A DNA stretch of 64,000 nucleotides, from NCBI RefSeq assembly GCF_001010945.1, contig NZ_LBHB01000002.1, forward strand, positions 558,001 through 622,000, given 5' to 3'. Both the position numbers and the translations under genes were made by a program. Below the pieces are notes generated by a model. It saw only the letters and a program-made list of their open reading frames with translations. It ran no database searches and was not told where the DNA came from. Positions 560 through 58,320 of this stretch are shown here, in pieces; position 1 is the stretch's first letter; the number at the start of each line of letters is the position of its first letter. This DNA comes from Aurantiacibacter luteus. GTDB lineage: Bacteria; Pseudomonadota; Alphaproteobacteria; Sphingomonadales; Sphingomonadaceae.

Positions 560-2118
560 CCGAGGGCGCCGACCCCATCGTGATCGACGAATGGCGGCGG
601 GTCAGCCCGCTCTCCATCGCCGCGACCTCCGCGCGCGACCTCGTCAAGGGATTGCTCCCCGCCGCCTTCGTGCTGTTCGGCGCGGCGCGCAGCGAGAACT
701 TCGCCGCCGCCTGGATCGTCTTCCCGGTCCTCTTGGCGATTCTCGGCCTCCAGCTCGGCGTCGCCTGGCTGCAGTGGAGCCGCCAGCGCTACCGCATCGG
801 CGCGAACGACGTGCGGCTGGAGCAGGGCGTGCTCAGCCGCTCGGCGCGCTCGGTGCCCTACGACCGCATCCAGGACGTGAGCCTCGAGCAGAAGCTGCTC
901 CCGCGCCTGCTCGGCCTCGTCGAGGTGCGCTTCGAGACGGGCGCTGGCGGCAAGGAGGAGCTGAGGCTGGCCTACGTGCCCGAGGCCGAGGGCGAGCGGC
1001 TGCGCGAAGTGGTGCGCTCGCTCGTCGAGCACGCCGAGGAACCCGTTGCTACAATGGATGGCGAGATGGCCGAGGAAGCGCGGCCCACGCCTGCCGAAAG
1101 CGGTAGCACGCTGTTCGCCATGGGGCCGCGGCGGCTGTTCATTTACGGCCTCTTCAGCTTCTCGCTGGTGATCTTCGCCGTCATTCTCGGTGCGGCGCAG
1201 CAGTTCGATTTTCTGTTCGATTTCTGGGGCTGGGCGGACGACTTCGTCGAGGACGAGCGATATCGCGGGGCCGCCGAGGCGCTGGCCGGATACTCGCTCG
1301 CCGCGCAGGTCGCGGCGGCGCTCTACGCGGTGCTGACCGTCATCGTCGTCGGCATGGCGAGCGGCGTGGCGCAGGTTTTTGTGCGCGACTGGGGCTTCCT
1401 GCTCGAACGCACGGCCAAGGGCTTCCGCCGCCGCCGCGGGTTGCTGACGAAGACCGACGTGGTCATGCCCGTGCACCGCGTGCAGGCGCTGGTCGTTTCG
1501 ACCGGCTGGCTCCGTCGACGCTTCGGCTGGCACGGCCTCAGCTTCATCAGCCTGGCGCAGGATTCGGGCAAGAGCGACCACGAGGTCGCGCCCTTCGCCA
1601 AGATGCTCGAGATTGCGCCGATCGCAGTTGAAGCCGGTTTTGCCCTGCCCGATCAGGATGTCCGATGGTGGCGACCGGCGCCGGCCTACTATTTCGTGCG
1701 CGGCCTGGCCGTGACCCTGTTCGTCTTCGTGCTGTTGCAGATCGCGGTCATCGTGGCGGCCGCCGAGGGCGCGCGCATCTGGCCGCTGCTGCTGCTGATC
1801 GTCCCCGTCGCCGCGTGGCAGGCGGTGCGGCGCTGGTACCTGTGGCGGGTGGAGCGGCACGCGCTCGATGCCACGCAGGTGCTGTCAAAGCGCGGCTGGC
1901 TGTCGCCGCGGCTGCAAATCGCCAGCCGGGTCAAGCTTCACTCGGCCGCGATCACGCAGGGCCCGCTGGGCAGGTGGCTGGGATACTGCGACCTCAAGCT
2001 GGGGCTGGCAGGCGGGACGATGGCCTTCCATGGCCTTCGGCGCCAAGACGCCTACGCCCTGCGCGCCGAGGTGCTGAAAAGCATAGTCGCCGCCGATCTC
2101 GGCAGCCTGCCGCGCTGA
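556..2118 (+). CDS. multi-PH-domain membrane protein (YdbT-like)
   Basis: 520 aa from a GTG start that overlaps the preceding stop. The reading frame stays open further upstream, but that part lies inside the previous gene. Repeated units each consist of a pair of hydrophobic helices plus a bPH2 domain. PH motifs are seen at VPYDRIQDVSLEQ (about residue 97), VMPVHRVQALVVS (about residue 304) and a third degenerate copy near the C terminus (SRVKLHSAAITQGPLGR). Length and architecture match YdbT-type partners of YdbS. It is probably a membrane complex subunit, with role unknown. Confidence 0.8.
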   Translation: MTEGADPIVIDEWRRVSPLSIAATSARDLVKGLLPAAFVLFGAARSENFAAAWIVFPVLLAILGLQLGVAWLQWSRQRYRIGANDVRLEQGVLSRSARSVPYDRIQDVSLEQKLLPRLLGLVEVRFETGAGGKEELRLAYVPEAEGERLREVVRSLVEHAEEPVATMDGEMAEEARPTPAESGSTLFAMGPRRLFIYGLFSFSLVIFAVILGAAQQFDFLFDFWGWADDFVEDERYRGAAEALAGYSLAAQVAAALYAVLTVIVVGMASGVAQVFVRDWGFLLERTAKGFRRRRGLLTKTDVVMPVHRVQALVVSTGWLRRRFGWHGLSFISLAQDSGKSDHEVAPFAKMLEIAPIAVEAGFALPDQDVRWWRPAPAYYFVRGLAVTLFVFVLLQIAVIVAAAEGARIWPLLLLIVPVAAWQAVRRWYLWRVERHALDATQVLSKRGWLSPRLQIASRVKLHSAAITQGPLGRWLGYCDLKLGLAGGTMAFHGLRRQDAYALRAEVLKSIVAADLGSLPR

Positions 2119-2121
2119 TTA

Positions 2122-2424
2122 TCAGCTGGGCGTGTCGGCCAGCACGTCCGCCCAGTCCGCGTGGCGGCGGAACAGTGCATCGACGTAGGGGCATTGCGGG
2201 ACGATCTTGAACCCCTCCTCGCGCGCGTCGGCGACCATGCGCTCGACTAGCTTGGCCGCGATGCCCTGCCCGCGCGCCTCGGGCGGAGTGAATGTGTGGT
2301 CGGCCACCCGCGCCTCGCCCGCGGAGCGCCAGGTCAGCTCCGCCTTGCGATCGCTGCCCTCCACGTTGGCGCGGTAGGCACCGTGGGTCGTCTCGTCGGT
2401 CGCCTGGATGTCGATATCGGCCAT
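2122..2424 (-). CDS. GNAT-fold N-acetyltransferase (YjdJ/Acetyltransf_CG type)
   Basis: 100 aa. The start is the ATG at 2424, preceded by a strong AAGGAG site; the frame is open for a further 13 codons upstream without a better site. The segment TFTPPEARGQGIAAKLVE is the acetyl-CoA binding (R/Q)GxGxA loop of minimal GNAT domains, and C-P-Y near the end matches the CPYV motif of the COG2388 family. Substrate unknown. It converges on the PH-domain gene with only three bases between the stops. Confidence 0.85.
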   Translation of the reverse strand: MADIDIQATDETTHGAYRANVEGSDRKAELTWRSAGEARVADHTFTPPEARGQGIAAKLVERMVADAREEGFKIVPQCPYVDALFRRHADWADVLADTPS

Positions 2425-2474
2425 GAATTTCTCCTTCTTGCGCCAAACGGGCGGCATGGGCATGGCGTTCCGCG

Positions 2475-3470
2475 ATGCAGTTCCTCTCCGACAACGCCGC
2501 GCCCGTGCATCCCCGCCTGTGGGAAGCCATGCGCGCCGCCGATGCGCCGGACACCCCCTACGACACCGATGCCTTGAGCCGCGAGCTGGACGCGCGCTTC
2601 TCCGCGCTGTTCGGGCGCGACTGCGCGGCCTTGTGGGTGGCGACGGGGACGGCAGCGAACTGCCTCGCGCTCGCGACGATGGTGGAGCCGCACGGCGGCG
2701 TCGTCTGCCACCGCGAGGCGCATATCGAGATGGACGAATGCGGCGCGCCCGGCTTCTACCTTCACGGCGCGAAGCTGCTGCTGGCGGACGGCGAGGGGGC
2801 CAAGGTCACGCCGGAGAGCGTTTCCAAGGTGCTCTCCGGCATCACCCGCGGCGTGCATCAGGTGCCCGCACAGGCGCTCTCGATCACGCAGGCGAGCGAG
2901 AGCGGGCTGGTCTACCGCTCCGACGAACTGGTCGCGCTCGCGTCGTTGACGGACGCGCATGGCCTCGGCTTCCACATGGATGGGGCGCGCTTCGCCAACG
3001 CCGTGGCCTTTCTCGATTGCCCGCCTGCCGAGGCGGCCGGACCGGTCGACGCGCTTAGCTTCGGCTGCGTCAAGAACGGCGGCATGGGGGCCGAGGCGGT
3101 GGTGCTTTTCGATGTCGAGCAGGCCGAGCGGCTGCGCTATCGCCGCAAGCGCGCGGGGCATTTGCAGAGCAAAGGCCGTTTCCTGGCAGCGCAGGTGCTG
3201 GCCATGCTGGAGGACGACCTGTGGCTCGCCAATGCACGCGCCGCCAATGGCGCCGCCGCGCTGATCGCGGAGCGGGCGCAGGACCGGCTCGTTCACCCGC
3301 AGGAGATCAACGAGCTGTTCGTCCGCATGACGACGAGCGAGCGGGCCGTGCTGCGCGATCAGGGCTTCTCGTTCTATGACTGGGACGATGCGAGCATTCG
3401 CCTCGTCACCCACTGGGCCACCGATCCCGACCATGCCCGGGCCTTGGGCGAGGCCATCGCCCGGTTATGA
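2475..3470 (+). CDS. ltaE: low-specificity L-threonine aldolase (PLP-dependent)
   Basis: 331 aa, fold-type I PLP enzyme of the beta-eliminating lyase/threonine aldolase family, cleaving L-threonine or allo-threonine to glycine and acetaldehyde. The N terminus FLSDNAAPVHP is typical. The substrate/PLP region HMDGARFANA is followed by SFGCVKNGG with the probable PLP lysine K200. Length fits the family. The last four bases overlap the start of the DMT exporter (ATGA), suggesting co-expression with a transporter that might move an amino acid or related product (inference). Confidence 0.88.
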   Translation: MQFLSDNAAPVHPRLWEAMRAADAPDTPYDTDALSRELDARFSALFGRDCAALWVATGTAANCLALATMVEPHGGVVCHREAHIEMDECGAPGFYLHGAKLLLADGEGAKVTPESVSKVLSGITRGVHQVPAQALSITQASESGLVYRSDELVALASLTDAHGLGFHMDGARFANAVAFLDCPPAEAAGPVDALSFGCVKNGGMGAEAVVLFDVEQAERLRYRRKRAGHLQSKGRFLAAQVLAMLEDDLWLANARAANGAAALIAERAQDRLVHPQEINELFVRMTTSERAVLRDQGFSFYDWDDASIRLVTHWATDPDHARALGEAIARL

Positions 3471-4399
3471 GCAGCGCCCTGGCGGCGAAGAAGCCGCACG
3501 CCCTGCTGCGCCCGGCCATCGCGCTGCCGTTCCTGCTGATCGCGATGATCTGGGGCTCGACCTGGTTCGTCATCACCACCCAGATCGCCGCCGCGCCGAC
3601 TCTGTGGTCGGTCACCTACCGCTTCGCCCTCGCCGCGCCGGTGATGTTCGCCCTCGCGCTGGCGACCCGCCAGCCGCTCGCGATGCCGGGCGCGACGCAC
3701 CGGCTGGCGCTGGCGATGGGCCTGTGCCAGTTCGTCGGCAACTTCGTCTTCGTCTATCTGGCAGAGGAGCACCTGACCTCTGGCATCGTGGCGCTGCTCA
3801 TCGGCCTGATGTTCGTGCCCAACGCCGTGCTCGGCGCGAAGCTGCTGGGTGAGCCGATCACCGCGCGCTTCGTGCTCGGCAGCGCGCTGGCGGTGGCGGG
3901 AATCGGCCTGCTGTTGGTGAACGAGGCGCGCGTCGCGCCGCTCGGCGGCAACGTGCTGCTGGGCACGGCCTTCGGGGTCTTCGCCATGCTCGCCGCCTCG
4001 GTCACCAACGTCATCCAGGCGCTGCCCGCGGGCAGGCGGGTGCCGATCGTCACGCTGGTTGCCTGGGCGATTTTCTACGGCGCGCTGATGGACGCCGCGC
4101 TGGCGCTGGTCTTTGCCGGGCCGCCGGTCTTCCCCGAGGCGCCGGGCTTCTGGCTGGGCACGGTCTATCTCGCGGTGGTGGGCACCGTGGTGACGTTGCC
4201 GCTGTATTACCGACTGGTGCGCGAACTGGGCGCGGGGCGCGCGGCCTACAACGGGGTGCTGGTGGTGGTCTTCGCCATGACGCTTTCGACCCTGTTCGAA
4301 GGCTATCGCTGGACGGGCCTCGCGGTGGCGGGCGCGGTGCTGGCGCTGGCCGGCCTGATCGTCGCGCTCAGGGCGCGGCAGGTGGCGAAAGACAGCTGA
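3467..4399 (+). CDS. EamA/DMT-superfamily exporter
   Basis: 310 aa, about ten hydrophobic helices, with the N-terminal LLIAMIWGSTWFVI signature of EamA (DUF6) drug/metabolite transporters and an internal duplication. It is coupled by a four-base overlap to the threonine aldolase. The 3' end overlaps the convergent epimerase gene by 32 bases. The substrate cannot be told from sequence; amino acid or metabolite efflux is the usual role. Confidence 0.85.
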   Translation: MSSALAAKKPHALLRPAIALPFLLIAMIWGSTWFVITTQIAAAPTLWSVTYRFALAAPVMFALALATRQPLAMPGATHRLALAMGLCQFVGNFVFVYLAEEHLTSGIVALLIGLMFVPNAVLGAKLLGEPITARFVLGSALAVAGIGLLLVNEARVAPLGGNVLLGTAFGVFAMLAASVTNVIQALPAGRRVPIVTLVAWAIFYGALMDAALALVFAGPPVFPEAPGFWLGTVYLAVVGTVVTLPLYYRLVRELGAGRAAYNGVLVVVFAMTLSTLFEGYRWTGLAVAGAVLALAGLIVALRARQVAKDS

Positions 4400-54403: not shown

Positions 54404-55333
54404 TCAGCGCCAGGGGGCCTGGGCGGTGCTGTCCAGCCTCCCGAGCGCTTCCAGTCGGCGCGCCTGCCGCGCTTCCAGCGCCAGCGCCATGATCGGGTCC
54501 GAACGGCGGGCGAACTCGCTGGGCGTCATGCCGAACAGGTCGCGAAAGTCGCGGTTCAGGTGGCTCTGGTCGTAGAAGCGCAGGGCGTGTTCCTCGGCCT
54601 CGGCGCGGTCGGCGAAACCGATGATCTGGCTCGCCATGTCGAGCGCGCGGGCGCGGCGCAGCACGCTCTTGGGCGACATTCCGAAATCGCGCACGACCAC
54701 GCGTTGCAGGGTTCGGAGCGAAACGCCGAAATGCCGGGCAAGGCCCGCGAGCGCGACCGAGGGATCGCGAAAGGCCGCTTCGTCGAAGGCGATGGCGAGC
54801 GGTGCCGGAGCCTTTGCCCCCGAGGCTTGCAGGAGCGCGCGGAACCGGCCCTCCACCGCCGCGAGCAGCACCTCGGGTTCGGCGGCATCGTCGGCGGGGG
54901 CGAACAGGCTCTCCCAGTCCGCCGCGCCGGAAACGCGGCCGATGTCGTCTATCCGGTCCAGCCAGTCCGCGAGGTTGGGCCCGCCGAGCGCCGCCACGGC
55001 ACCGGGTCGCAGGGCAATGCCGTAGGTGCCGATCGGCCCCGCGACCGTCAGCGGCATCCGGCGCGTCTGCGGTCCGAAGAACAGCGCCCCGCGCGAACGT
55101 ATGACGGGGCCGCGGGCGGTTTCGGCCCGCCAGTCGCCCGCAATCAGCGCGCGCAGGAAGACCGTGTCGTTGAAGATGCCGGTGCCCAGAACCTGTCCGG
55201 CGGGCTGGTGCGCCAGCGTGACGAACAGGCGGGCAATCCAAGGCGAGAGGTCGGCGGCCGGCGCGCGGTTGTACGACAGGGGACGTCCATCCCTGCTGCG
55301 CCCGCTGATGCCGATAACCCCTGTCTGCGTCAT
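54404..55333 (-). CDS. AraC-family transcriptional regulator (copy A)
   Basis: 309 aa. The N-terminal sensor region has FFGPQTRRMPLTVAGP. The C-terminal double HTH (about 180-290) has the AraC signature FYDQSHLNRDFRDLFGMTPSEF. It is a paralogue of the gene immediately upstream, which has the same motifs. Ligand and targets unknown. Confidence 0.88.
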   Translation of the reverse strand: MTQTGVIGISGRSRDGRPLSYNRAPAADLSPWIARLFVTLAHQPAGQVLGTGIFNDTVFLRALIAGDWRAETARGPVIRSRGALFFGPQTRRMPLTVAGPIGTYGIALRPGAVAALGGPNLADWLDRIDDIGRVSGAADWESLFAPADDAAEPEVLLAAVEGRFRALLQASGAKAPAPLAIAFDEAAFRDPSVALAGLARHFGVSLRTLQRVVVRDFGMSPKSVLRRARALDMASQIIGFADRAEAEEHALRFYDQSHLNRDFRDLFGMTPSEFARRSDPIMALALEARQARRLEALGRLDSTAQAPWR

Positions 55334-55354
55334 CCGCCCCCTAGTCCGGGCACA

Positions 55355-56353
55355 TCAGGCCCGGTTTTCAGCACCGTCCTGATGCGTATGCGCCTGGGTA
55401 GCGGGTTCGCTCGCCGGATCGCGCCAGGGGCCGAGCTCACCAGGTGCGAGCGCGCGCAGCACCTCGAGCCGCCGCCGCTGGCGCACCTCGAGGCTGAGGG
55501 CGAGGACGGGGTGCGGGCGCTTCTGCAATTCGCCCGGAGAAATGCCGAAGATGGCGCGCATTTCCTTGATGCGGTGCGACTGGTCGAAATAGCGGTCCTC
55601 TATCTCCGGTTCGTCCTCGGGCCGGGCGACGCCGAGCAGGGCGGCGCCGAAATCCTGCGCCCGCGCGCGGCGAAGTGCGTGCTTGGGATTGACCCCGAAG
55701 GCCTTCTTGATCACCCGCTCCACCGTGCGCTTGGAAACGTCCTGCCGGTCGGCGAACTCTTCCACCGTCATCTCGGGATTGGTAAGGCAGGCGGTCTGGA
55801 AATCGGCGACCAGTTGGGCGGGCTCGACCGCGCCTTTCACCAGCGGGCGCAGGAAGCATTCCTCGATGGCTTCCGCCCACTTGTCGTAGGTGGCATCGCG
55901 CGGCACGAGCGAGGCGACCGGCTCGCTGCGGCCGAGCAGATCGTCGAGATCGTAAACCCTGTCCAGCGAGTCGGCAGGATCGGGGAATCCGAGCAGCTGC
56001 GCCGCTCCGGCCTGGAACAGGATCGAAATGACGATCCACCTGCCTGCGATGGAAAGCGGCATGCAGCGGGTGTGCGGGCCGAAGTAGAAGGCCCTGCCGT
56101 CCGGACCCGGGTCGAGCACCTTGACCCCGTCGGCATCTTTCGCGGTCCAGGCATCGTGAAACAGGATCGTGATGCTGGGATGTTCTATTATACGCCCGCA
56201 ATCGATTCGAACGCCGGCTGCGATCTCCGCTTCGGCCACCGTTATCCAGTAGACCCAGGGCTGCAAATCCGGCGCCGCAGCGCGCGAAATTGCCAACGGC
56301 GCCCCCCGATGCGTCGCCCCGGTATGCGATTTGATAGGCGGCCCGCTTTGCAT
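55355..56353 (-). CDS. AraC-family transcriptional regulator (copy B)
   Basis: 332 aa if begun at the ATG at 56353; an ATG at 56404 is also in frame but leaves just 14 bases before the divergent hisN-like gene and adds unconserved-looking residues. Neither has a strong ribosome site. Sensor motif FYFGPHTRCMPLSIAG and AraC signature YFDQSHRIKEMRAIFGISPGEL match copy A. It is transcribed ahead of copy A with a 21-base gap, so the two probably form an operon. Confidence 0.82.
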   Translation of the reverse strand: MQSGPPIKSHTGATHRGAPLAISRAAAPDLQPWVYWITVAEAEIAAGVRIDCGRIIEHPSITILFHDAWTAKDADGVKVLDPGPDGRAFYFGPHTRCMPLSIAGRWIVISILFQAGAAQLLGFPDPADSLDRVYDLDDLLGRSEPVASLVPRDATYDKWAEAIEECFLRPLVKGAVEPAQLVADFQTACLTNPEMTVEEFADRQDVSKRTVERVIKKAFGVNPKHALRRARAQDFGAALLGVARPEDEPEIEDRYFDQSHRIKEMRAIFGISPGELQKRPHPVLALSLEVRQRRRLEVLRALAPGELGPWRDPASEPATQAHTHQDGAENRA

Positions 56354-56418
56354 TGCGCGTGTTGTTGCGTTTGTTACGTGTGAAATGCAACTTTTGTGCA
56401 CCATAACGGACCAGTTTC

Positions 56419-57204
56419 ATGATTTCCAGAAATGACATTGCCCTTGCCCAGCGCCTTGCCGATGCCGCCGGGGCGGAAATTCGCCCGCTTTTCCGCAGCG
56501 GACTGGACGGTGAGGCGAAGCAGGACGCCTCGCCCGTGACCAAGGCCGACCGCGCGGCGGAGGCGATCATGCGACGCCTGCTGGAGGCGGAGGCTTCCGC
56601 CGACGGCATCCATGGGGAGGAATTCGGGGTGAAGGAGGGCGTGTCGGGCCGCCAGTGGGTGCTCGACCCGATCGACGGCACCACCGCATTCCTTGCCGGG
56701 CGGCCGATCTTCGGCACGCTGATAGCGCTGCTGGTGGATGGCTTCCCGGTGCTGGGCGTGATCGACCAGCCGATCAGCGGGGAGCGCTGGCTGGGTGTGT
56801 CGGGGCGGCAAACGCTGTTCAACGGCGAGCCCGTCTCCTGCCGCCCGTGCCCCGACCTTGCCGCCGCCACCATCGCCACTACCGGCCCGCATTATTTCTC
56901 GGTGCCACAGGGGGATGCCTTCATGGCGCTCGCCGGGCAGACCGATCACAAGCGCATGGTGATGGGGGGCGACTGCTACAACTACGGTTGCCTCGCCAGC
57001 GGCAACCTTGATGTGGTGGCCGAGGCGGGCCTGAAGCTGCACGACTACGCCGCGCTCGTCCCCGTGGTGGAGGGTGCGGGCGGAGTGATGAGCGACTGGC
57101 GGGGCGAACCGCTCCACGCCGGCAGCGACGGAACGGTGCTGGCGCTGGGCGACCCGGCGCGGCTGGAGGACGTGGTGGAGATCCTTTCGGGCGCCGCCGG
57201 TTAG
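56419..57204 (+). CDS. hisN: inositol monophosphatase-family protein, probable histidinol-phosphatase
   Basis: 261 aa. Metal-binding motifs of the IMPase fold: HGEEFG, WVLDPIDGTTAF and a C-terminal LHDYAALVPVVEGAGG. Alphaproteobacterial HisN proteins, which dephosphorylate histidinol phosphate in histidine synthesis, have this length and FLAGRPIFGTLIAL context; other IMPase-family substrates cannot be excluded. The TAG stop overlaps the TAA stop of the convergent rhodopsin gene (TTAG). Confidence 0.85.
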   Translation: MISRNDIALAQRLADAAGAEIRPLFRSGLDGEAKQDASPVTKADRAAEAIMRRLLEAEASADGIHGEEFGVKEGVSGRQWVLDPIDGTTAFLAGRPIFGTLIALLVDGFPVLGVIDQPISGERWLGVSGRQTLFNGEPVSCRPCPDLAAATIATTGPHYFSVPQGDAFMALAGQTDHKRMVMGGDCYNYGCLASGNLDVVAEAGLKLHDYAALVPVVEGAGGVMSDWRGEPLHAGSDGTVLALGDPARLEDVVEILSGAAG

Positions 57205-57911
57205 GCCCCGGCGACGACCGAGCCCTCCTCGTCGGCGGGCACCGTCTTGAAGCGCGCGGTGGCGACGAAGCCGTAGACGACCTTGGCCGTCACATCGAGC
57301 ACGAGCACGGCCCAGTTCTCCAGCCCGATGGCGATGACGCCCAGCCCTTCCGGCCCTAGCGCGAAGACCAGCGGATAGACCAGCCAGACGGCGGTGAGGA
57401 ACACGAGGTTGCCGCGATAGACCTGCTCCAGCCGGCCGCCCAGCCTGTCACCGATGGCGCGCACCGGGCCCCAGAGCATGAACAATACGCCGGCAAAGGC
57501 CGCGCAGGACCAGCCGAACCAAACCCATTTCGCAGTCTCGTCCGCCGAGAGCGCGGCGGCGAGACCGGTGGCGATCATGATGACGTCGAGCACAATGGCG
57601 GGCAGAATGTAGGTCGAATGACGCGGATGCTCGTGCAGGCCCGTCAGGATGAGGCCCGCGAGCAGGATCGGCGTGGTCGTGGCCCAATCGGCATAGCGCG
57701 CGAGATAGACCGGCGCCCCGTCCGGCCCGTCGATGGTGCCGGTACCCAGCCACATGGCGAGATAGGCGGTGGCGGCGATGAAGGGGACGACGGAGTGGAA
57801 CTGTGCGTGGTGGCGGAATTCCTGCCGCTTGTCGCCGTGCAGGTAGATCGCGAGCGATGCCAGGGCCATGACGACGAAGCCGACGAGGAAGGGAAGCTGC
57901 TCTGCACTCAT
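57201..57911 (-). CDS. DTG-motif microbial rhodopsin, predicted outward proton pump
   Basis: 236 aa from the ATG at 57911; seven helices. The retinal Schiff-base lysine is K210 in LDVTAK with counter-ion D206. Helix C reads RYADWATTTPILLAG, so the motif positions are D75, T79 and G86 (bacteriorhodopsin D85, T89, D96). The cytoplasmic donor is therefore glycine, and helix B has H39 at the position of bacteriorhodopsin T46. Proton-release glutamates E188 and E198 align with E194 and E204. F132 sits where xanthorhodopsin has the antenna glycine, so a carotenoid antenna is unlikely. No retinal or carotenoid genes are in the window. Confidence 0.92.
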   Translation of the reverse strand: MSAEQLPFLVGFVVMALASLAIYLHGDKRQEFRHHAQFHSVVPFIAATAYLAMWLGTGTIDGPDGAPVYLARYADWATTTPILLAGLILTGLHEHPRHSTYILPAIVLDVIMIATGLAAALSADETAKWVWFGWSCAAFAGVLFMLWGPVRAIGDRLGGRLEQVYRGNLVFLTAVWLVYPLVFALGPEGLGVIAIGLENWAVLVLDVTAKVVYGFVATARFKTVPADEEGSVVAGA

Positions 57912-58116
57912 GAGCGATCTCGATATGGTTGCGCTCCGCAACGCACCTGCGAGCAGCGCGGTTCCGGCGGCGGGACAGCGCGCTTGCATTTTTTCCGCGA
58001 GCCGCTATTGGCGCGCCCTTCATCGACACGCATCACCTAGCCGGCCTGGCCACAAGGGCTGCCAGGGCTGGCCGTAGCGTGTCTCTGACCCCAACTTCTC
58101 TGGTAAGGAGACGAAA

Positions 58117-58320
58117 ATGCCCAAGTTGAAGACCAAGAGCGGCGTGAAGAAGCGCTTCAAGCTCACCGCCACGGGCAAGGTCAAGCATGGTGTCGCCGGC
58201 AAGCGCCACCGCCTGATCAGCCACAACGCGAAGTACATCCGCCAGCAGCGCGGCACCAAGACCCTTGCCAAGGCCGACTGGGCCGCGGTCAAGGCTTGGG
58301 CGCCCTACGGGCTCGACTGA
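58117..58320 (+). CDS. rpmI: 50S ribosomal protein L35
   Basis: 67 aa, [20 protein letters not shown] being the standard N terminus. TAAGGAG precedes the ATG. It is followed after 14 bases by rplT, the usual pair; infC, often upstream, is not seen here and the 205-base leader before rpmI is non-coding. Confidence 0.97.

Follow-up and report, generated by a model that had tools for sequence, protein, structure and literature searches.

A mirror-type DTG rhodopsin of Aurantiacibacter luteus, a predicted outward proton pump, carries a bacteriorhodopsin-like pair of glutamates at the putative proton release site

Several previously documented microbial rhodopsins carry no carboxylic residue at the cytoplasmic donor position of helix C, among them the mirror proteorhodopsins (mPRs). 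According to the report on SpaR (PMC10154332), through which Harris et al. 2015 and Cho et al. 2021 are also cited here, the SpaR-like clade comprises 103 proteins with the motif DTG, DTS or DTT and is marked by H32 and H33, S121 and S199 being present in the vast majority of its members but not defining. SpaR and PspR are described there as outward proton pumps, and the traits of the class are outward proton pumping at acidic pH only and inhibition by Zn2+. In SpaR, D73 is the proton acceptor and the pK of the donor was put at 5.8; the proton release route of the clade was called elusive and was supposed to differ from that of bacteriorhodopsin (BR). DTG sodium pumps of the MpR-like kind are placed in a separate clade, distinguished by acidic residues at MpR positions 32, 33 and 35. 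The hosts named in the discussion of that report are Sphingomonas, Pantoea and Pseudomonas; the loci that we found extend this range to Erythrobacteraceae, Aureimonas and one Erwinia. PMC7979833 gives absorption at 533-541 nm for DTG rhodopsins from two Sphingomonas, one Rosenbergiella and one Rubrobacter.

In the window analysed here, a 64-kb stretch of A. luteus DNA, a DTG rhodopsin gene of 236 codons for amino acids is located at 57201..57911 on the minus strand, as defined by translation, Pfam, alignments and the tree. The candidate start is the ATG at 57911 and the stop is the TAA at 57203-57201. A second in-frame ATG upstream, at 57989, would add 26 residues; the 236-residue form is near the chain sizes of the solved relatives (239 and 238 residues), and the starts of the other relatives were set at the nearest Met, so that their lengths are no guide to this start. 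Because the Pfam model Bac_rhodopsin matches residues 3 to 219 with 158.9 bits (E 1.7e-46), the frame is no chance open reading frame, and its codon divergence from the four nearest relatives, which is higher at third positions (0.39-0.44) than at second positions (0.16-0.18), is of the kind seen when selection preserves the protein. NCBIfam assigned no family to either of the two rhodopsins of the genome, and a promoter scan, to which we attach no weight, gave no sigma-70-like site in 57850-58150.

A PDB search with the deduced protein returned 8anq (SpaR) with E 1.2e-68 and 7w74 with E 7e-64, the next entry following at 2.8e-32. We take 7w74, which is titled 'Bacteriorhodopsin-like protein', to be PspR, the DTG rhodopsin of Pseudomonas putida of Harris et al. 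2015. Identity amounts to 52-53% with SpaR, 51-52% with 7w74 and 31-32% with BR, for which the reference sequence agrees with the full 249 residues of PDB chain 1o0a. The earlier note on this DNA had assigned D75, T79 and G86 to the three functional helix-C positions and H39 to BR T46, and had regarded the carboxylic helix-C donor as missing and the retinal lysine as present. The alignments with BR and SpaR bear this reading out: D75, T79 and G86 fall at BR D85, T89 and D96, H39 falls at T46 and K210 at K216. Likewise, R72, Y73, Y50 and D206 correspond to BR R82, Y83, Y57 and D212, and E188 and E198 to E194 and E204. In the comparison with SpaR, H34/H35 align with H32/H33, H39 with H37, G86 with S84, E94 with E92, A120 with S121, I195 with D196 and E198 with S199. 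The stretch from E188 to D206 contains no gap relative to either BR or SpaR, and E188 and E198 therefore sit at BR E194 and E204; the spacings of 10 (E188-E198) and 8 (E198-D206) residues equal those of BR 194-204-212. The A. luteus rhodopsin thus lacks the BR-type carboxylic donor in helix C and has the BR-type E194/E204 pair. Three of the six outer-cavity residues of SpaR that are listed in PMC10154332 are changed in A. luteus, two of them to non-polar residues.

To place the protein among its relatives, mPR loci were collected by exact match to either of two short peptide patterns, a procedure by which divergent members are under-represented. This gave 66 intact non-redundant mPRs (A. luteus and 65 others), a count reached after dropping duplicate locus identifiers and the TAG-interrupted gene of Parapontixanthobacter (L007/L090); it includes neither the PDB sequences nor the plasmid copies H1-H3. 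In a tree of 75 rows, the 68 mPR rows, including A. luteus, 8anq and 7w74, were separated from seven outgroup rows with a support of 99/98, and A. luteus fell into a five-row subclade (100/92, starred) together with Erythrobacter sp. HI0063, Erythrobacter sp. CG_2015-16_64_20 and two other genomes. In a second tree of 38 rows that included two Methylobacterium DTG proteins, the same subclade received 99/92 and the 31-row mPR group 88/91 (not starred). The identity of the A. luteus protein to its four nearest mPR relatives is 68-72%. R72, D75, T79, D206, K210 and H39 are each invariant in 66/66 mPRs. The motif is DTG, as in A. luteus, in 52 of the 66, DTS in 13 and DTT in one; a histidine occupies the H34 site in 51/66 and the H35 site in 65/66, A. 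luteus having both. The commonness of S121 and S199 does not extend to A. luteus, which has A120 (Ala in 20/66) and E198 (Glu in 1/66) at these sites. Since the S121 site is also Ala in the named Erythrobacteraceae rows that were counted, this change is not special to A. luteus. The assignment of the protein to a described group of DTG rhodopsins with a helix-B histidine is upheld, as 8anq and 7w74 are its best solved relatives and it nests in their clade; the group is an already known kind, the mPRs. The histidine had also been considered unique to this group of proton pumps, which does not hold: two Methylobacterium DTG rhodopsins of the MpR type have it too, and this residue alone therefore cannot separate an mPR from an MpR-type protein.

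Some of the collected loci have peculiarities of their own. The mPR gene of Parapontixanthobacter aurantiacus (L007 6001-6684; L090 is the same gene) is broken by an in-frame TAG, reflecting either a decayed gene or an assembly error. A locus recorded as Arthrobacter sp. TPD3018 (L014) has an mPR that groups with Sphingomonas, and the record is probably misnamed. Two mPR genes each were found in Sphingomonas sp. BK345 (L019/L054) and Aureimonas phyllosphaerae (L031/L060). Plasmids of 395-557 kb with mPR-like genes (H1-H3, 51-52% identity) occur in Sphingomonas parapaucimobilis and two Pantoea, and on the S. parapaucimobilis plasmid (L137 4007-5562) the rhodopsin and blh genes have a single base in common.

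The A. luteus rhodopsin gene converges with a 4-base overlap on a gene of the inositol-monophosphatase family (56419..57204, plus strand; Pfam Inositol_P, 159.9 bits), and the two genes are neighbours throughout the five-member subclade. On the other side, rpmI for ribosomal protein L35 (58117..58320, plus strand) is divergent from the rhodopsin gene and is followed by the gene for ribosomal protein L20 (58335-58694) and then by a phenylalanyl-tRNA synthetase gene. The seven near neighbours are completed by the ribose-phosphate pyrophosphokinase gene prs and two tandem AraC-like regulator genes (54404-56404), the latter being positioned between prs and the phosphatase gene. In their matching parts the two regulators share about 32-36% of their residues; of the congener loci, some have a single regulator and others have none within the fetched flank. 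A blh-like match was found downstream of the rhodopsin gene in 54/61 named mPR loci, for which 6-kb flanks were inspected where the contig allowed. The seven named loci without such a match (L002-L007 and L009) all belong to the Erythrobacteraceae and are the nearest named kin of A. luteus, so that the blh neighbour is missing in 7/8 named loci of this family, Croceicoccus (L008) being the one that has it. Among five extra mPR loci, inspected with 1.5-kb flanks, a blh-like match was present at L093 and absent at L068, L087, L089 and L091.

The earlier note had seen neither blh nor crt genes in the window. In line with this, a search at E 1e-4 gave zero blh-like matches in it, and the five genome-wide matches to the phytoene-synthase and lycopene-cyclase families all lie outside. 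The suggestion that retinal could come from elsewhere proved compatible with the A. luteus assembly (2,887,216 bases, 22 contigs), where we found crtY, crtI and crtB and a blh-like gene beside a second rhodopsin. The three crt genes lie together on the same contig as the window (C11), about 380 kb past its end. CrtY (490 bits) and the CrtI family (669 bits) are both above their cut-offs; the phytoene synthase is above the Pfam cut-off (223 bits) and below that of the NCBIfam CrtB model (295 bits versus 480). Pfam detects two rhodopsins in this genome, the gene at 57201..57911 and one at C18:43214-43903, in whose translation the residues at the BR 85/89/96 sites were read by eye as N-T-Q. The best PDB match of this second rhodopsin (173.5 bits) is 8qle, titled 'Bacteriorhodopsin-like protein', which we take to be the sodium pump ErNaR; PDB entries named 'Chloride pumping rhodopsin' scored 165.9 bits and below. 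On account of its NTQ motif, the second rhodopsin is a predicted chloride pump. PMC7979833 also records an NTQ rhodopsin from Sphingopyxis baekryungensis. The blh-like gene follows directly after the NTQ rhodopsin gene (C18:44140-44790); it is the single match to the Pfam BCD (blh) family in the genome and scores above the Pfam cut-off (32.9 bits versus 28) and below that of NCBIfam (51.6 versus 95.25). An mPR and an NTQ rhodopsin thus occur together in one organism, which has one blh match. Retinal would then be made from beta-carotene through the cell's own crt genes and the blh-like enzyme encoded beside the NTQ rhodopsin.

At E 1e-10, matches to the A. luteus rhodopsin were obtained in 12/396 genomes of the order, two of the 12 showing only 35-39% identity (xenorhodopsin-like), in 6/60 genomes of the genus to which the nearest relative (G258) belongs, in 1/10 of the genus of G1024 and in 1/385 of the class; at E 1e-40, 9/397 genomes of the family matched. 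The order, family, class and genus samples overlap. A search for MpR-type members in the 385 class genomes matched at E 1e-10 in the A. luteus genome only, and the same was true for this rhodopsin in the 40 genomes of the genus, its own included. Rhodopsins above the Pfam cut-off are present in 7/40 genomes of the genus, with NTQ in five genomes (A. luteus included), NDQ in three and DTE in three, and one further weak match (G393) lies below the cut-off. Genomes of the order also contain rhodopsins in which Pro takes the place of BR D212, a feature of xenorhodopsins (L073-L076), and G191 and G314 each have such a rhodopsin elsewhere in the genome in addition to an mPR. We fetched 29 of the 39 congener loci around the phosphatase gene. 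In 23/29, rpmI lies within 1.5 kb of the phosphatase gene with no rhodopsin match between them, the slot being short or occupied by other open reading frames. A search for a fossil rhodopsin gave a best E of 1.8 over 23 stretches, namely 17 bounded phosphatase-rpmI gaps and 6 flanks in which rpmI was not reached, six gaps under 180 bases being left out. Across L095-L123 the stretch between the two genes differs in content and in length (about 0.13 to 1.3 kb in the loci that include both genes) and looks like a tolerant insertion site. The pattern at the slot could stem from an old rhodopsin gene that was lost many times or from recurrent exchange at a single site.

The earlier note had described both extracellular release glutamates as kept. 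They are indeed present, E188 being encoded by GAA (57348..57350, minus strand) and E198 by GAG (57318..57320, minus strand) according to the codon comparison; the relatives indicate, however, that they were probably not kept. Among the 66 mPRs, the residues at the BR E194/E204 sites are E/S in 45, E/T in 13, Q/D in six, Q/N in one and E/E in A. luteus only. The four other members of the subclade all have E/S, with the Ser codon AGC in place of GAG, which amounts to three base differences. Because these four nearest relatives are E/S and E/E occurs in 1/66, the pair was probably regained on the A. luteus branch, although it may also occur in relatives outside the sample. The Q/D combination, with an acid at the other position, is seen in the sister group of the subclade (L003-L006, L068) and separately in L091; the protein of Qipengyuania aestuarii is one with Q/D. 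No report of an E/E variant was found in the accessible portions of the literature on mirror proteorhodopsin, PspR and the DTG rhodopsins of Erythrobacter/Qipengyuania. A similar pair in the cyanobacterial CyR proton pumps was called a putative release group in PMC7541481.

Based on the present data, we consider it probable (about 0.8) that the A. luteus gene encodes an outward light-driven proton pump of the mPR (SpaR/PspR, DTG) clade. The assignment of proton pumping, with D75 as acceptor, is made because close homologues have reported pumping; from the comparisons with these homologues we also infer the direction of pumping, its pH range, the order of release, the roles of H39 and of the glutamate pair, and the retinal route. 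Light would isomerise the retinal on K210, and the Schiff base proton would be passed to D75. Reprotonation would occur from the inside via a cavity that is open to the cytoplasm and has H34, H35 and E94 in its lining, where H39 may act as proton donor or gate and so substitute for the absent helix-C acid. On the outside, the proton would exit past R72 to E188/E198, which replace the E/S of the relatives and could confer a BR-like proton release. A tentative extension of this scheme, to which we give only about one chance in three, is that the protein is a natural hybrid pump that joins the His-gated, acid-side cytoplasmic half of the mirror type to a re-evolved BR-like release pair.

Alternatively, the protein may be an ordinary mPR that releases protons as SpaR does, with no BR-like pair, E198 having arisen neutrally where the sequence is variable; this is a serious contender that falls just short of an even chance. 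The segment 183-206 shows 52% identity to the four nearest relatives (rank 23 from the bottom among 209 windows of 24 residues) and is thus among the less conserved stretches, so that loose constraint could account for E198; the idea that this segment is the most divergent part of the protein was rejected, since identity is lower still in the BC region (54-82) and at the C-terminus. The occurrence of Q/D (6/66) and Q/N (1/66) at these sites argues that the region tolerates change, and BR S193, beside the release pair, is missing in A. luteus, being Pro there (P187) as in SpaR. However, 58/66 mPRs have Ser or Thr at the E204 site, the change from AGC to GAG requires three base differences, and the hydrophobic residues I195 and L197 match the L/I of BR and archaerhodopsin-2 and not the D/T of SpaR. 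On the cytoplasmic side, H39 might serve only as a gate, with the Schiff base being reprotonated directly through the open cavity, an option that we regard as plausible but lean against. The SpaR data point both ways (PMC10154332): replacement of H37 by K, R or N caused no dramatic impairment, so that gating rather than proton donation may be the task of the histidine, and M decay tracks the bulk pH above pH 6; yet M decay is nearly pH-independent at pH 4.6-6.0, suggesting an internal donor, and pumping is blocked in H37F and H37L.

Two further readings would deny that the protein pumps protons at all. It is very unlikely that it is a light sensor or regulator: the absence of an adjoining blh gene sets it apart from most named mPR loci, and the NTQ rhodopsin could serve ion transport in this organism, but D75, D206 and R72 are kept and no transducer domain was found among the seven near neighbour genes. 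A Na+/Li+ pump like MpR, the DTG rhodopsin of Methylobacterium populi, is more improbable still. DTG and the helix-B His are common to A. luteus and two Methylobacterium relatives, and a tree holding A. luteus with this pair, 8.4 log units worse, survives the AU test at 0.05 (p-AU 0.123). This test alone does not exclude the reading, which was rejected on residues and identity: the acids E32/E33/D35 of MpR are replaced by F32/R33/H35, identity to the two Methylobacterium proteins is 37-40% against 68-72% to the four nearest mPRs, and the free tree groups A. luteus with the mPRs (subclade 99/92). The two proteins, taken from plasmid records (L135, L136), were typed as MpR by their E-E-A-D residues, and their function is predicted. 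In L135, the rhodopsin gene and a blh gene (1420-3624) lie on a 40-kb plasmid near an IS91 transposase and possibly form a mobile two-gene light module.

Compared with SpaR of Sphingomonas paucimobilis (8anq), the proton pump proposed for A. luteus has the helix-B His, the H32/H33 pair, E92, the counter-ions and the retinal Lys in the same places, but DTG where SpaR has DTS, and A120/I195/E198 where SpaR has S121/D196/S199; a blh-like gene adjoins the rhodopsin gene in S. paucimobilis (L037) and not in A. luteus. It shares DTG and the helix-B His with 7w74, which unlike A. luteus has G/H at the H34/H35 sites and Thr at the E204 site. The MpR-type proteins resemble it in DTG and the helix-B His as well, but have E-E-A-D where A. 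luteus has F-R-H-H, and D/A and D/G at the release sites. The mPRs of Erythrobacteraceae, such as that of Erythrobacter sp. HI0063, have DTG and up to 72% identity, and differ in having E/S, Q/D or Q/N at the release sites; the two named Erythrobacter members of the subclade share with A. luteus the slot beside the phosphatase gene and the lack of blh in the fetched flanks. If the hybrid interpretation is correct, release should be early (with M), and the pair should set the pH range, uptake still being limited by the histidine. With the BR pair in one member, the relatives with E/S, E/T, Q/D and Q/N constitute a natural series, so that the role of a release group in this clade can be tested on natural proteins. 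BR itself (1o0a) has in common with the A. luteus rhodopsin D85, T89, D212, K216, R82, Y57, Y83 and the pair E194/E204, and differs from it at D96, T46 and S193, which are G86, H39 and P187 in A. luteus.
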